DNA from: Candidatus Aenigmatarchaeota archaeon
Lineage (GTDB): Archaea; Aenigmatarchaeota; Aenigmatarchaeia; PWEA01; JACQIF01
Direction: 5' to 3'
Length of the DNA: 64,000 nucleotides
NCBI GenBank assembly: GCA_016432325.1
Contig: CP066684.1
Coordinates: 124,001-188,000 of the forward strand
Under the pieces are notes generated by a model, which saw only the letters and a program-made list of their open reading frames with translations, did not search any database and was not told the origin of the DNA. Shown here one piece after another: positions 2,171 through 56,034 of this stretch. Numbering within the stretch: position 1 is the first letter of the stretch; each line of letters opens with the position of its first letter. The translations under genes were made by a program, and so were the position numbers.

Positions 2171-3178
2171 TTAGTCGTGCACGAGAGGCGCAATCTTGCG
2201 CGGTTCAAAGCCGTTGCCGTTGGTGGTGTCCTTGTGTCTAATTTCCACCCACCCCGCGACGCGCTCGGCAATAGCATCTGGAGTGAAGCCGGCCTTGCGG
2301 TACAGGTCTTTCGGCGAGCCGGTCTCCCCCTTCTCGGCCCCTATTCTGCGCATGTGGGTCGGATACCTCTCCGAAAGCACGTCAGATACACTGCTCCCCA
2401 GCCCGCCGTCTATGCTGTGGTCTTCTGCTGTTACGACAAGACCGGTCTTCCTTGCATACTGTTCGATAAGCAAAGAGTCTATCGGTTTTATGGACGAGAT
2501 GTTTATCACCGCCGCACTCACGCCAGATCCCTCCAGCAGTGCTGCGGCTCCCAGCGACGGTTCTATCAGCGCCCCATAGCTCATTATCGCTACGTCGTCG
2601 CCGTCGCGAAGCACCTCGCCCTTTCCTATAGACCATTCCCAGTTGTCGTCGTGCAACGTCAATACTTCTGCGCGGGTCATGCTCATCGTCGCGGGTCCCG
2701 CGTATTTCGGGTCTTTTACGTTTGCGAGTTTGACTGTCATCTGTTTCGCTTCAACCCAGTCCGCCGGGCATAACACGGTGTCCGAGATCGCCTTGTTGTA
2801 TGATAGATAGTTGAGAACCTGGTTGCTCACGCCGTCTTGTCCGACCTGCAAGCCGACATGGCTGCCTACCTTGCAGACGTTGAGCTTCGCGCGCCTGACT
2901 ATCTGTTCGAACGGTTCGGCGGCGAGTTTGGAGAATCCCTCGAAGGTGGCGTAATAGACGCGTTCGCCTGTACGATGCGCCGCACCAGCCGCCATTGTGA
3001 CGCTGTCCTGTTCCGCTATGCCCGCATCAACGATGCGCCGCGGGTACTGTGCAGCGAAGTCCGCGAGGGACATGGAATTGCCAAGGTCCGATACGTAAAC
3101 GCGGATATTGTGCGTCTTGGCCGCTTCCACAGCGCCCCGACCGAGGCCGCTTCTCATCGATTCGTGCTGGCCCTTCAT
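2171..3178 (-). CDS. tktB: Transketolase, C-terminal subunit (split form)
   Basis: A 335-residue protein with the pyrimidine-binding and C-terminal domains of a split transketolase. Seen are the region RIVDAGIAEQDSVTMAAGAA with the Glu that activates thiamine diphosphate, and the swivelling C-terminal domain (VVTAEDHSIDGGLGSSVSDVL). Together with the N-terminal subunit encoded just upstream it transfers two-carbon units between sugar phosphates in the non-oxidative pentose phosphate pathway. The start at 3178 is backed by the SD AAGGAGG. A 190 bp spacer packed with hairpins separates the two halves, and the start codons ATGAAGGGC are repeated at its far end (3372). Archaea commonly split this enzyme. 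Confidence 0.88.
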   Translation of the reverse strand: MKGQHESMRSGLGRGAVEAAKTHNIRVYVSDLGNSMSLADFAAQYPRRIVDAGIAEQDSVTMAAGAAHRTGERVYYATFEGFSKLAAEPFEQIVRRAKLNVCKVGSHVGLQVGQDGVSNQVLNYLSYNKAISDTVLCPADWVEAKQMTVKLANVKDPKYAGPATMSMTRAEVLTLHDDNWEWSIGKGEVLRDGDDVAIMSYGALIEPSLGAAALLEGSGVSAAVINISSIKPIDSLLIEQYARKTGLVVTAEDHSIDGGLGSSVSDVLSERYPTHMRRIGAEKGETGSPKDLYRKAGFTPDAIAERVAGWVEIRHKDTTNGNGFEPRKIAPLVHD

Positions 3179-3372
3179 GCGCGACTCCCTCCTTCTCCGC
3201 GCTGCACGGGAACCGCAGTCCCCGGCATTTTCGAACAGCGGTTCGAAACTTTACGAATAGCTATTCGTAAACTTGCGACCGCGTCGCAAGAGTTCGACCG
3301 AAGGCCGAACATGTCGGGAAGCTCCACTTCCCGTACAGGGAAGGATGAAACCGCGTGTTTCGTGCCCTTCAT
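3175..3372 (-). other. Hairpin-rich spacer ORF between transketolase halves
   Basis: A 65-codon ORF starts at 3372 (ATGA overlap with the N-subunit stop) and ends on the ATG of the C-subunit (ATGA overlap). It begins MKGTKHAVSS, similar to the C-subunit start MKGQHESMRS; the first nine bases ATGAAGGGC are identical. Most of its length is made of back-to-back inverted repeats (3229-3333), so the encoded peptide is constrained by RNA structure and is unlikely to be a folded protein. It may act as a translated leader for the C-subunit. Open frame and repeats are seen; role is inferred. Confidence 0.45.
3229..3333. repeat. Chain of five inverted repeats
   Basis: Five hairpins follow each other almost without gaps: TTTCGAAC/GTTCGAAA (3229-3248), the perfect 22 bp palindrome at 3250-3271, CTTGCGAC/GTCGCAAG (3272-3290), GTTCG..CGAAC with an inner CC/GG (3292-3310), and CGGGAAG/CTTCCCG (3315-3333). 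Loops are 0 to 5 nt except in the fourth, which has an internal mismatch. All arms listed are perfect as written. Such a chain in a spacer inside an operon suggests an RNA structure controlling stability or the expression ratio of the two transketolase subunits, or a palindromic mobile repeat. Confidence 0.8.
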
Positions 3373-33022: not shown

Positions 33023-34408
33023 TCACACCTTCAGCCTTCTTTCCAGCGATTCAAGGTCGCGCATCAGGGACTCTTCCTCGCCCTTCTGCTTGGCCAGAAC
33101 GTCGGCGAGCTGCGCCTTTATGTCTTCCGTTGATTTGGCGAGCCTGTCGATTTCGTCTCTCTGATCCGTGACGGCAAGGCGCAGCGTTTCCGTCGTCGCC
33201 TTGGTTTCCGCAAGCTCGTTGGATATCTCGTCGAATATCTCCTGTTTAAGAATGTTGGCCGAATGGTCAAACATCTCGGCGAACCTGTTGGTGGCTTCGT
33301 TGAGCTTGTAGTCGAACTTGCCTTCGAGATTCTCTTCCACGGTTTCTATGCGCTTGACGCGGTCCTGCACGTCGATTATTACCGACAGCGCGCTTTCCCT
33401 GAGGCGTTCGGCCTCCTTCTTGAGTTCTGAGAGTACTCTCTTCTCGGAGCCGGCCAGCGCTTCCTTGGTCTCCTTCTCGGCGTCGGCGGCCTTCCGCTGC
33501 ATCTGGTTTATGGCAGAAGACGCCTGGTCTTCGGCGCGGCGCCGGACGGCGGCCATCTCGTTCTCCGTCGCGATCATCGCCTCGTCCGCCTTCTTGCGTG
33601 CGTCTTCGGCTACCTGCGCGAGCGAACTGCCGATGAACTGTCTTATCGCCCTCTCGGAGACGCGTTCGTCGACGGCAGTGACTTGGTTGGTGAGGGACTG
33701 CAGGAGATTCGCGAGGCGTTCGGCTTCCTCTGTGTGGAGCTTGAGGGTCTTTTGCATGAGCGCGAGCTCCTCCTTGCTGCTCGTTTGAGACAGCCTAGAC
33801 TGCAACTCTCCTAGCGCAGAATCCGTGTGGTTGAGCCTGGATGACAGCGTGGACTGCATCCGTTCCAGGTCTTCGGTCCTTGCCGCGGTGCGCGTCTTGG
33901 CTTCGAGCATCCTTATGGATTCGTGAACGGTTGCCTCGGTTGACGCGACGCGCGCGTCCAGCGCCTTCATGCGATCTGCGATAGAGGCGACATCTGCCAT
34001 CCTGTTTTCTAGCGCGCGCGTCTTGTCGTTGAGAGTCTGAATCTCCGACAGCCTGCCTTCCACGGAGCGGACGCGCTCGAGTAAGGGCGTCACGTCAGGA
34101 GGCTGTCGCGTCTCCAATGACCTGAACCTCGCGTCGGCGCCTGTCAGGGAACTCTGAAGGTTGGATTCCATTGATTGCACGCGTTCGTTGAGAGAAGAAA
34201 CGGATTCTAACGTTGATTTGATGTTTTCGGCTTCCTGGCGCGCCACTTCAAGCTGTCTGCGGATTTCGACCAACCCTTCGCTTTCGGAAGGTCTCGTCTG
34301 CTCTACTTCTCCTATCTTCTTTTCGAGCGCCGCGAGCCTCTCTGCCAGAGTCACCTGCAGTTCGGCCAGTTCGCCTATCTGATTGACCAATTCGTCTACT
34401 CCATCCAT
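33023..34408 (-). CDS. Long coiled-coil protein
   Basis: A 461-residue coiled-coil protein with heptads from residue 10 to the end (LVNQIGELAELQVTLAERLA; repeated LExR and MxSL units). No enzymatic motif, membrane segment or signal. The start overlaps the stop of the preceding gene (TGATG). It resembles the 749-residue neighbour in composition and repeat style, suggesting a duplicated family that may co-assemble. Confidence 0.8.
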   Translation of the reverse strand: MDGVDELVNQIGELAELQVTLAERLAALEKKIGEVEQTRPSESEGLVEIRRQLEVARQEAENIKSTLESVSSLNERVQSMESNLQSSLTGADARFRSLETRQPPDVTPLLERVRSVEGRLSEIQTLNDKTRALENRMADVASIADRMKALDARVASTEATVHESIRMLEAKTRTAARTEDLERMQSTLSSRLNHTDSALGELQSRLSQTSSKEELALMQKTLKLHTEEAERLANLLQSLTNQVTAVDERVSERAIRQFIGSSLAQVAEDARKKADEAMIATENEMAAVRRRAEDQASSAINQMQRKAADAEKETKEALAGSEKRVLSELKKEAERLRESALSVIIDVQDRVKRIETVEENLEGKFDYKLNEATNRFAEMFDHSANILKQEIFDEISNELAETKATTETLRLAVTDQRDEIDRLAKSTEDIKAQLADVLAKQKGEEESLMRDLESLERRLKV

Positions 34409-34692
34409 CAGCGCTCACCGACGCTTTTTCTGAGAGCACGCAATATCTCTTCCTCGTCTCCGAGAACGCTCTCCACTATCTCGGATTTTATGCTGTCCGC
34501 CGACTTGAGCCTGCCTTCCATGCCGTCGATTCTGCTTTCAAGCATGCGCACCTTTCGCTTGAGCTCTTCCAGCATGGATGTGAGATACTCTACGTCTTTT
34601 GAAGGCGCGGCGTGCGCGCTTCCGAGTTCTTCCCTGACCTCTTTCAGGGACTCTTCCACGGCTTCACGCACGGCGTCTTTAAGGGTTCCCAT
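34408..34692 (-). CDS. Short coiled-coil protein
   Basis: A 94-residue helical protein (MGTLKDAVREAVEESLKEVR; LTSMLEELKRKVRMLESRID). The start at 34692 has the SD GGTGA. The frame is open upstream to 34782, but that part consists of tandem palindromes and is probably leader. A separate 32-codon upstream ORF at 34796 begins MGTMK, a near copy of this gene's MGTLK. Function unknown; part of the coiled-coil operon. Confidence 0.65.
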   Translation of the reverse strand: MGTLKDAVREAVEESLKEVREELGSAHAAPSKDVEYLTSMLEELKRKVRMLESRIDGMEGRLKSADSIKSEIVESVLGDEEEILRALRKSVGER

Positions 34693-34697
34693 GAACT

Positions 34698-34796
34698 TCA
34701 CCAATTTCCTCGTGGGATGTACGAGAACCACGTTCTCGACATGTCGAAATTCCACGGAATTTCGTACAACTTGAAATCGCATTTCATTGTTCCCAT
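34698..34796 (-). other. Upstream ORF copying the coiled-coil gene start
   Basis: Starting 1 bp after the previous gene's TAG, ATGGGAACAATGAAA (MGTMK) opens a 32-codon ORF ending in TGA, 5 bp before the real start ATGGGAACCCTTAAA (MGTLK). The copies share ATGGGAAC and codon 5. Four palindromes fill the space between. This is the same layout as at the prefoldin, OB-fold and transketolase genes. Confidence 0.5.
34722..34786. repeat. Chain of four palindromes
   Basis: In plus-strand order: CGAGAAC/GTTCTCG (34722-34738, 3 nt loop), the perfect 12 bp palindrome TCGACATGTCGA (34736-34747), CGAAATTCC/GGAATTTCG (34745-34764, 2 nt loop) and TGAAAT-CGC-ATTTCA (34772-34786). Neighbouring palindromes share their outer bases. 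The chain lies in a spacer inside the coiled-coil operon. Confidence 0.8.
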
Positions 34797-34797
34797 C

Positions 34798-35310
34798 CTA
34801 ACCACCCATTATCCTCTTGGCCTCTTGAATCTTGGAACGTATGTCGGCGATGCGTATCTCGCCTACAACAGGCGGAGGTTTCTCGAAGACAGGTTGCGCA
34901 CGTTCCGGAACGGGCGGCGCGATAACGGATGGTCTGACGGGTTCGGCCCTCTGCCTCTTGATAGCTTGCACATCCGCCGCTACCGCGTCGATTGCCTGTT
35001 GCATCTTCTTCAGGGCTTCCACATCCGTCGTCAAGGAATCGAGCCTTCTTTGTATCGCGTTCTGGAGCTTGTACAGGTTCTCGAGGGCCCTGACAACGTC
35101 CTTGGGAAGAGGCGTTGGGGCCGTCGGCGCGCCGGAAGTCGGCCCGAGCGCCGTTCCGGTCGCCGTTGCGGGCGCCTTGCCTTCCTGGATGTTCTTGAGC
35201 AGCGACTTGAGTTCCAGTATCTCTATCTTGTTCGTAAGCGAAAGGTCTTCGAGCTCCTCGAGCTTGCTTTCTATATCTTCGAATCTTCTGGGCGTGTCCT
35301 CCCCTGCCAT
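34798..35310 (-). CDS. Coiled-coil protein with Pro/Ala-rich linker
   Basis: About 170 residues: a first coiled coil (RFEDIESKLEELEDLSLTNK, to about 45), a flexible Ala/Thr/Pro linker, a second coiled coil (LENLYKLQNAIQRRLDSL) and a Pro-rich tail ending VGEIRIADIRSKIQEAKRIMGG. It heads the coiled-coil operon. ATG 35310 is chosen because a TATA-like CATTTATTTGG near 35335 gives leaderless spacing. Unknown function. Confidence 0.65.
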   Translation of the reverse strand: MAGEDTPRRFEDIESKLEELEDLSLTNKIEILELKSLLKNIQEGKAPATATGTALGPTSGAPTAPTPLPKDVVRALENLYKLQNAIQRRLDSLTTDVEALKKMQQAIDAVAADVQAIKRQRAEPVRPSVIAPPVPERAQPVFEKPPPVVGEIRIADIRSKIQEAKRIMGG

Positions 35311-51726: not shown

Positions 51727-51744
51727 GATAATCGGAGTTCCTTC

Positions 51745-52015
51745 TGTGGGATAGGCCGGGGGAGCTAGGGGTCCCTTGCAAGCGCAAACCCTCTACAGCG
51801 CGGCCGAAAAGCCTGGAGAGGTCCGGTTGTACGGCAGGCCTCAGGAACTGACTGAGAAGTCCTGTCCTTCTGGAGCGCTTCAGGCGCGAACCTGGTCAGG
51901 CCCGGAAGGGAGCAGCCATAAGCGTCTGCAACGCTGTTAGAAGGGTAGCAGGATGGAGAAGGCTTCTGGGACAACCTTCCGTGTGACCAAAGATCCATCC
52001 AGGCGAATCCCATCA
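51745..52015 (+). ncRNA. ffs: Signal recognition particle 7S RNA
   Basis: The universally conserved helix 8 core GGTCAGGCCCGGAAGGGAGC followed by AGCC occurs near 51895, the SRP54-binding site. The 5' end TGGGAT (51747-51752) pairs with the 3' ATCCCA (52007-52012), forming the closing helix 1 of archaeal 7S RNA. The GGGGTCCC-like segments near 51765 fit the Alu-domain loops and the rest fits the long helix 5. Length is about 270 nt, slightly shorter than in many archaea. It partners SRP54 (14440). Confidence 0.88.
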
Positions 52016-54645: not shown

Positions 54646-54741
54646 ATGAAGTTTACCGCTCAGAGAGCCAAGAGGGACCGGTAAATGCATGAAACTGCGG
54701 TTTCATATTTACTTCGCAGAGATATGGGAGGTGCTCGGTAA
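54646..54741 (+). promoter_or_regulatory. HerA-like gene leader with two in-frame upstream ORFs
   Basis: A TATA (TTTATATCG, about 54617-54625) predicts a start near 54646, where a 12-codon ORF begins (MKFTAQRAKRDR, stop TAA). Directly after its stop, ATG 54685 opens an 18-codon ORF whose TAA touches the HerA-like ATG 54742. All three are in one frame. The 10 bp sequence CGGTAAATGC occurs at both ORF junctions (54679 and 54737). Between them is the perfect hairpin ATGAAAC-TGCG-GTTTCAT (54689-54706), and the SD GGGAGGTG follows. Confidence 0.5.
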
Positions 54742-56034
54742 ATGCCCGTCCGTCCAATAGTCATCGGCAGAGACGAAGAGGACGCGAAGCGTTTTGGCGA
54801 ACTGGGCACGATCACCCTCGGCAAGCACATCGTCGGCACAGGCGAGGACGCGCATCTCACGAACACGATAGTGATGGACGTCGCGCGTCCGCACGTGATG
54901 CTCGTTCTGGGCAAGCGCGGCCAGGGCAAGTCCTACACGCTCGCGACCATAGCAGAAGGCGTAACAGAGCTGCCTAAGGATATCCGCTCGAACCTCTCTG
55001 TCGTGATAATCGATACCATGGGAATCTTCTGGTCCATGAAAAATCCGAACGAAAAACAGGTCGAACTCCTCGCCGCGTGGGGTCTTCAACCCAAGGCTTT
55101 CGACGTTACGGTTTACGTGCCGCACGGCCACAAGGATTTCTTCCATAAGGAGGGCATCCCTTACGACGGGACGTACGCTTTGAATCCGTCTGACCTTACT
55201 CCAGAGGACTGGGCGCTGTCTTTCGAACTGTCTCTGATAGACCCGACTGGCATACTTCTCGATCGTGTCGTGCGCAAGCTGAAAGAGAGCGGCAGCTATG
55301 GAATCGACGACATCATAGAAGCCGTAGACGCGGACAGGCGGGCCGAGCCGAAAGTCAAGGAAGCCCTGCAGAACCGCCTGCTTTCGGCAAAGGAGTGGGG
55401 TCTCTTCTCGTCGCGCGGCACGCCGATAGAGGAGCTCCTGCAGCCCGGCAAGGTTTCTATAATCGACACGTCGCTCTTCAGCCAGCTCGGGGAAGGATGG
55501 AGCGTGCGCTCGCTTCTTGTGGGTTTGGTGGCTCGTCGCATATACGAAGCCCGCATCGCCGCCCGCAGGCGCGAGGAGACAGAACTGATCACCGGTACGG
55601 TCGCCAAGAAGAAGATTCCTTTGACGTGGTTGATGATAGACGAGGCGCACCAGTTCCTGCCGGCGGACGGACGTACAGCGGCCACTGAAGCGCTGCTCTC
55701 TCTCGTGAAGCAGGGCCGCCAGCCCGGCATTTCCTGCGTGTTCGCCACTCAACGCCCGAACAAGCTTCACGAGGACGCGATATCGCAGGCCGACCTCGTG
55801 CTCACGCACCGCCTGACAGTAAAGGCGGACATCGATGCGCTGCGCAGCATCATGCAGACGTACGTTCTTTTCGACATCACGAAATATCTCAATGAACTGC
55901 CTCGCGAGAAAGGTGTGGCGCTTGTGCTGGACGACAATTCGGAACGCCTGTTTACGTTGAAGGTAAAACCGCGCCAGTCATGGCATGCAGGCGACACGCC
56001 GATAGCGCTGAGAGTGAAGGAAGGGCTGGTTTAG
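54742..56034 (+). CDS. HerA-like/FtsK-type ATPase (DUF87)
   Basis: A 430-residue ATPase. The N-terminal beta HAS-like region (GTITLGKHIVGTGEDAHLTN) leads to Walker A VLGKRGQGKSYTLATIAEG (about 55-73), Walker B PLTWLMIDEAHQFLP and the arginine/sensor region ISCVFATQRPNKLHEDAISQ. Such ATPases form hexamers that pump DNA or proteins. True HerA works with NurA in end resection, but no nurA is seen nearby, so the role is open. The SD is GGGAGGTG before ATG 54742. It overlaps purB by 4 bp at the 3' end. Confidence 0.82.
   Translation: MPVRPIVIGRDEEDAKRFGELGTITLGKHIVGTGEDAHLTNTIVMDVARPHVMLVLGKRGQGKSYTLATIAEGVTELPKDIRSNLSVVIIDTMGIFWSMKNPNEKQVELLAAWGLQPKAFDVTVYVPHGHKDFFHKEGIPYDGTYALNPSDLTPEDWALSFELSLIDPTGILLDRVVRKLKESGSYGIDDIIEAVDADRRAEPKVKEALQNRLLSAKEWGLFSSRGTPIEELLQPGKVSIIDTSLFSQLGEGWSVRSLLVGLVARRIYEARIAARRREETELITGTVAKKKIPLTWLMIDEAHQFLPADGRTAATEALLSLVKQGRQPGISCVFATQRPNKLHEDAISQADLVLTHRLTVKADIDALRSIMQTYVLFDITKYLNELPREKGVALVLDDNSERLFTLKVKPRQSWHAGDTPIALRVKEGLV

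Follow-up and report, generated by a model that had tools for sequence, protein, structure and literature searches.

Why should a chain of palindromes fill the space between two copies of the same translation start, the second of which begins the gene? The locus raising this question lies in a stretch of 64,000 nt of archaeal DNA that was analysed as a whole, called the window here. The gene encodes a coiled-coil protein of 94 aa (MGTLKDAVREAV.., 34408..34692), for which a Pfam search returned no family above the cut-off. The genome containing the window is a single contig of 874,769 bases; the nearest named relatives of its rpS4 are 38-48% identical and found in DPANN genomes, and the host is DPANN-like. 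The loci compared were drawn from a contiguous 384-kb part of this genome, with selected loci added.

Anatomy of the reported locus

The palindromes, the copied starts, the upstream ORF and the real gene all lie on the minus strand, and their 5'-to-3' order is ATGGGAAC, palindrome chain, GGTGAAGTTC and ATGGGAAC again. The first start copy, S1 (34789..34796), occupies the native start position, 1 nt past the stop of an upstream coiled-coil gene (34798..35310), and the second, S2 (34685..34692), is the start of the real gene. The extended copies read ATGGGAACA (first) and ATGGGAACC (real), with ACA and ACC both encoding Thr. An ORF of 32 codons, MGTMKCDFKLYEIPWNFDMSRTWFSYIPRGNW followed by a stop (34698..34796), ends 5 nt before ATG 34692, and its TGA falls inside a second Shine-Dalgarno, GGTGA (34698..34702), which was seen in nearly all of the start units described below. 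The original prediction of palindromes between two copied starts, of a synonymous Thr codon change and of a 32-codon upstream ORF ending 5 nt before the real start was thus borne out, its coordinates checking on the minus strand.

The chain comprises the family-1 core hairpin TGAAATGCGATTTCA (34772..34786), the palindromes CGAAATTCCGTGGAATTTCG (34745-34764) and CGAGAACGTGGTTCTCG (34722-34738), and the short palindrome GACATGTC between the longer ones. Palindromes cover 52 of 70 nt, which ranks second among the 70-nt stretches of the window, where another array (3170..3372) reaches 61. Since 5 out of 40 random 64-kb sequences from an order-1 Markov model attained the same 52/70, palindrome density alone is weak, borderline evidence. 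The folding energy of the array as single-strand DNA was beyond all 200 shuffles (z -3.9). As RNA it was ordinary (z -0.03), so that nothing at this locus points to a strongly folded RNA leader.

Nested composites

The palindromes had been taken as one array; instead, they resolve into a start unit of 53 nt and a nested element of 51 nt. The latter, TGTACGAAATTCCGTGGAATTTCGACATGTCGAGAACGTGGTTCTCGTACA (34718..34768), is a family-2 composite of the form TGTAC-[GAAATTCCGTGGAATTTC]-GACATGTC-[GAGAACGTGGTTCTC]-GTACA that closes on itself (TGTAC/GTACA) and adds 17 codons in frame with no stop. Excising TGTAC..GTACA leaves a 53-nt unit resembling the other units, whose ORF, MGTMKCDFKFPRGNW followed by a stop, is like theirs. 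The excision also rejoins the two pieces of T', the inverted copy of the start, into GTTCCCAC (reverse complement GTGGGAAC); the 5' piece (AGT of AGTTCCCAC) now lies at 34769..34771 and the 3' piece (TCCCAC) at 34712..34717.

The other array, also on the minus strand, has S1 ATGAAGGGC at 3364-3372 and S2 ATGAAGGGC at 3170-3178, the start of a gene for the C-terminal half of transketolase, with an upstream ORF open over 65 codons (3175-3372). Inside it lies a nested composite, TGTACGGG..CCCGTGCA (3203-3337), of 135 nt (3x45) or 45 codons, and what is left after its removal is a unit of 59 nt. This array behaves like the reported one, both being a start unit plus a nested composite, which supports the predicted kinship of two arrays lying between copied starts. 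The transketolase locus has no orthologue in the congener for comparison.

A 53-nt composite homologous to the 51-nt insert was found at genome position 467537-467589 (alignment score 26, shuffled maximum 7), and similar composites occur at 424118, 441667 and 258444. Furthermore, two chained palindromes form an in-frame 16-aa insertion (G000:C1:316899-316944) inside ORF 315931-318852, and the congener orthologue, 76% identical as a protein, is without it. Further chained palindromes, identified by eye, lie in coding frames or N-terminal extensions at G000:C1 191296, 384452, 424118, 441667 and 492390, the hosts being cysteinyl- and arginyl-tRNA synthetase, L7Ae and pilin-like proteins. Another recurrent chain consists of paired 22-nt palindromes, CTTACGAAC..GTTCGTAAG and TTTGCGAAC..GTTCGCAAA, which are intergenic (G000:C1 273227, 370026, 448810).

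Recurrence of the start unit

Each unit runs in the order S1, hairpin TGAAAY..RTTTCA, T', Shine-Dalgarno and real start S2, and the distance from S1 to S2 is usually 52-59 nt. About 20 gene starts in the genome show this layout; the congener has 4 such starts, and the other families of the order have about 10. The genes bearing it, named from their translations, are unrelated (rpS4, rpL39e, lysS, exosome subunit, SMC and others). A third unit of the window, on the plus strand (54679..54745), has CGGTAAATGC copies around a hairpin at 54690-54705, and its ORF, MHETAVSYLLRRDMGGAR followed by a stop, ends directly before ATG 54742; a fourth, on the minus strand (26210..26264), has ATGCCCGAACT / TTGCCAGAACT around a hairpin at 26236-26252. 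A simple repeat family confined to the window was considered and rejected, only one near copy being present, at start level. An archaeal SRP RNA (51744-52015) is the sole Rfam match of the window.

The core hairpin TGAAAYN{2,5}RTTTCA occurs 32 times in the genome, about 20 of them at gene starts, and its reversed control not once; in the congener the counts are 5 against 0. The stricter TGAAACN{3,4}GTTTCA gave 25 against 0 in the genome; two genomes belonging to another family of the order gave 7 against 0 and 3 against 0. In most of the class this motif occurs about 0-2 times, with the exception of G038 (same class, other family), where one and the same palindrome, TGAAACAACGTTTCA, is present in 15 copies and is probably a repeat of unrelated kind.

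The copying of the starts was measured against a permutation null in which each locus was paired with the start of another locus, across 23 loci with the reported locus left out. The S1-S2 match was 8.20 against 5.54 when permuted (sd 0.34), the T'-S2 match 6.20 against 4.54 (sd 0.23) and the T'-S1 match 5.50 against 4.52 (sd 0.21). In ten loci from the order's other families, selected by hairpin and downstream start alone, the match was 10.30 against 7.67 (sd 0.77) for the direct and 7.80 against 5.88 (sd 0.46) for the inverted copy. The copied start at the reported locus is not due to chance, and the same layout recurs genome-wide. Direct repeats flanking all palindromes were not enriched (28 vs 24.2); the signal emerges only with start-anchored repeats. 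The duplicated stretch varies in length from about 7 to 19 nt. Six internal codon differences between S1 and S2 were all synonymous (GAC/GAT, ACC/ACG, CCC/CCA, AGA/CGA, GCC/GCA and GAT/GAC), a trend, drawn from a small sample with ambiguous edges, into which ACA/ACC at the reported locus fits.

Empty sites in the congener

The comparison with the congener rests on one genome that is 73% complete. The leader had been expected to be conserved at the coiled-coil gene; in the congener (L018) the spacer is absent altogether, the upstream gene ending ..ATGGGTGGCCAATAG and the next base beginning ATGGGGACACTTACAG, so that TAG is followed directly by ATGGGGACACTT at the position matching S1. At genome loci 297986 and 413090 the congener orthologues likewise have a single start and no insert. 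The insert is therefore missing in all three readable orthologues, the coiled-coil gene included, which indicates an insertion that duplicated the start. At 413090 the Shine-Dalgarno and TTG start of the congener align with S1, indicating that S1 is the native position and the rest was inserted.

The upstream ORF

The original prediction that the upstream ORF matters found support in the frame of the units. In 17 of 24 units the ORF in the S1 frame ends within -9..+5 nt of the real start, as against 0 and 3 in the other two frames, so the upstream ORF appears to be under selection; the remaining 7 end elsewhere. Four units have the ORF MHETAVSYL.. in common, terminating directly before the start. 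The stop of the upstream gene lies within -8..+12 nt of S1 in 12 of 24 units, a context common at operon junctions generally. Termination-reinitiation is established in archaea, and the opening of structure by upstream translation has been described for archaea and bacteria (PMC6728339).

Inserts in rRNA and tRNA genes

At 16S position ~908 (L127, about 2380-2432), the 16S rRNA gene of the genome (G000:C1:637095-639272) is interrupted by a palindromic insert about 45 nt long, and farther on it carries a longer insert with a LAGLIDADG-like ORF. In the 16S rRNA gene of G006 (L117, about 500-545), TGAAACGAAGTTTCA-type palindromes sit in the universal 790 loop (GGATTAGATAC^CCC) with flanks like S1/T'/S2, and this insert is probably an intron related to the palindrome family of the start units. 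tRNA-like genes seemingly interrupted by several palindromic inserts were seen at G000:C1 about 211190-211460, 246800, 258420 and 292740, and in L118. ARAGORN found one tRNA on the 384 kb and two when introns were allowed.

Proposed mobile insertion at translation starts and its alternatives

We consider the locus best explained, with a probability of about 0.6, by a short mobile palindromic element that inserted at a translation start specifically in this lineage, the duplicated start and the ORF relaying translation. Beside the recurrence, empty sites, nesting and frame preservation that were observed, this takes in three things that we infer, namely mobility of the family, translation of the ORF and termination-reinitiation. 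The insertion would duplicate the start (S1...S2) and bring a hairpin, the inverted copy T' and its own Shine-Dalgarno; later, the second palindromic element of 51 nt would land inside T'. By itself, an element entering the junction between two coupled genes would uncouple them. Ribosomes finishing the upstream gene, whose stop is 1 nt before S1, may reinitiate at S1 and, having translated the small ORF, once more at S2, in which case the ORF would be a relay preserving the old gene-to-gene coupling. Such a relay is possible because S1 keeps the native entry, the ORF is open through both elements and its stop falls in the second Shine-Dalgarno, and on our best reading it is why insertions at start codons survive.

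Several points weigh against this explanation. Standard cut-and-paste transposition yields no inverted target copy, and the copied length of about 7-19 nt is unlike a fixed target duplication, so that neither fits ordinary transposition. A search for Y1/HUH transposases (PF01797), covering Y1 alone and with positive controls, found none in the genome. The copies of the element have diverged (best 83% over 60 nt), and no recent jump is therefore seen. Candidate sources of T' are snap-back synthesis at the hairpin and, alternatively, selected pairing.

On a reading as a regulatory translational switch, T' would hold S1 and so keep S2 open or, with S1 taken up by a ribosome, would pair with S2 and close it, and initiation or stalling on the upstream ORF would be sensed. 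The complementarity of T' extends to both starts and is no weaker for S2 than for S1, and in several loci predicted folding closes the S2 AUG when S1 and the 5' arm are deleted (unpaired 0.82 to 0.00 at 395591, 0.77 to 0.06 at 72172 and 0.71 to 0.01 at G001_L050). However, the effect is missing in many loci (mean 0.47 to 0.33), leaving a mixed picture overall, and at the reported locus, where the nested insert interrupts T', the AUG shifts little (0.37 to 0.21). Moreover, the genes served are mixed housekeeping genes and the congener orthologue does without the device; a switch, possible at some loci, is unlikely overall. Translational attenuators of the erm type consist of a leader ORF and three segments with alternative pairing around the start codon. 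The units have such a leader ORF and such segments, whereas they are dispersed over mixed genes with no common signal and arose by lineage-specific insertion.

An origin without any mobile element is rather improbable. In that case repeated template switching at quasi-palindromes would have built the hairpin, T' and the second start on the spot, with snap-back synthesis copying the start inverted and then direct. Start, inverted start and start is the signature expected of a snap-back and return, the duplicated length varies and T' matches the local start at every locus. Nevertheless, the core hairpin TGAAAC..GTTTCA and the 57-nt MHETAVSYL units are common to unrelated genes, which argues that this part was copied from elsewhere, and likewise the 51-nt composite.

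We regard it as very improbable that the spacer is an archaeal intron spliced from the mRNA at a bulge-helix-bulge motif. The palindromic inserts in the 16S rRNA and tRNA genes of these genomes do resemble such introns, and the one at ~908 has the complete motif (AAG-GTTG-AAA-CTC..GAG-CAAC-GAA-CTT); but in a scan for which 16S served as positive control, 22 of 24 start units, among them the reported locus, lacked the motif, leading us to reject splicing of the units, each of which keeps its own Shine-Dalgarno and start codon. The least likely account, chance palindromes or an assembly artefact, draws on the random sequences that reach the same coverage; it is contradicted by the recurrence of copied starts, frame bias and nested repeats across several independent genomes.

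Relation to known systems

The insertion of mobile palindromic elements, as preferred here, resembles the in-frame insertions of Rickettsia palindromic elements (PMC10969869). In both, short palindromes sit in frame within unrelated genes and leave the reading frame open, a likeness that here covers proteins (the 16-aa insertion) and the upstream ORF (the nested inserts of 51 and 135 nt). The units described here differ in that their host is archaeal, they measure about 53 nt rather than about 150 bp, the target is a translation start duplicated both directly and inverted, and two families of palindromes are nested in one another. Prokaryotic and archaeal MITEs similarly form short dispersed palindromic copies with direct repeats at their ends and empty sites in a relative (three loci here), whereas here the Y1 search found no transposase with matching ends, the duplication is variable in length and an inverted target copy lies inside the element. 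Chains of short palindromes in intergenic DNA are also typical of REP/BIME elements with RAYT (Y1) transposases; by contrast, a Y1 transposase is absent from this genome and the units sit at starts with copied start codons. As in archaeal termination-reinitiation coupling (PMC6728339), the stop lies a few nt from the next start and the Shine-Dalgarno inside the frame, but the coupling frame here is an ORF of 15-65 codons created by a palindromic insertion.

Our literature search found no description matching start-duplicating palindromic insertions. We tentatively propose, at somewhat less than even odds, that these units form a novel class of mobile palindromic elements with translation starts as their target, which copy the start directly and inverted, carry their own ribosome site and relay ORF, and enter essential genes without silencing them, with second-order elements nesting in frame. 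If this is true, the start codons of essential genes, where a compact genome is most sensitive, can be colonised by a repeat family that rebuilds the start and keeps translational coupling. The pattern of start, inverted start and start calls for a new mechanism of insertion, and in such genomes automatic annotation could readily put starts in the wrong place. The paired start copies are natural sets for studying termination-reinitiation in archaea.
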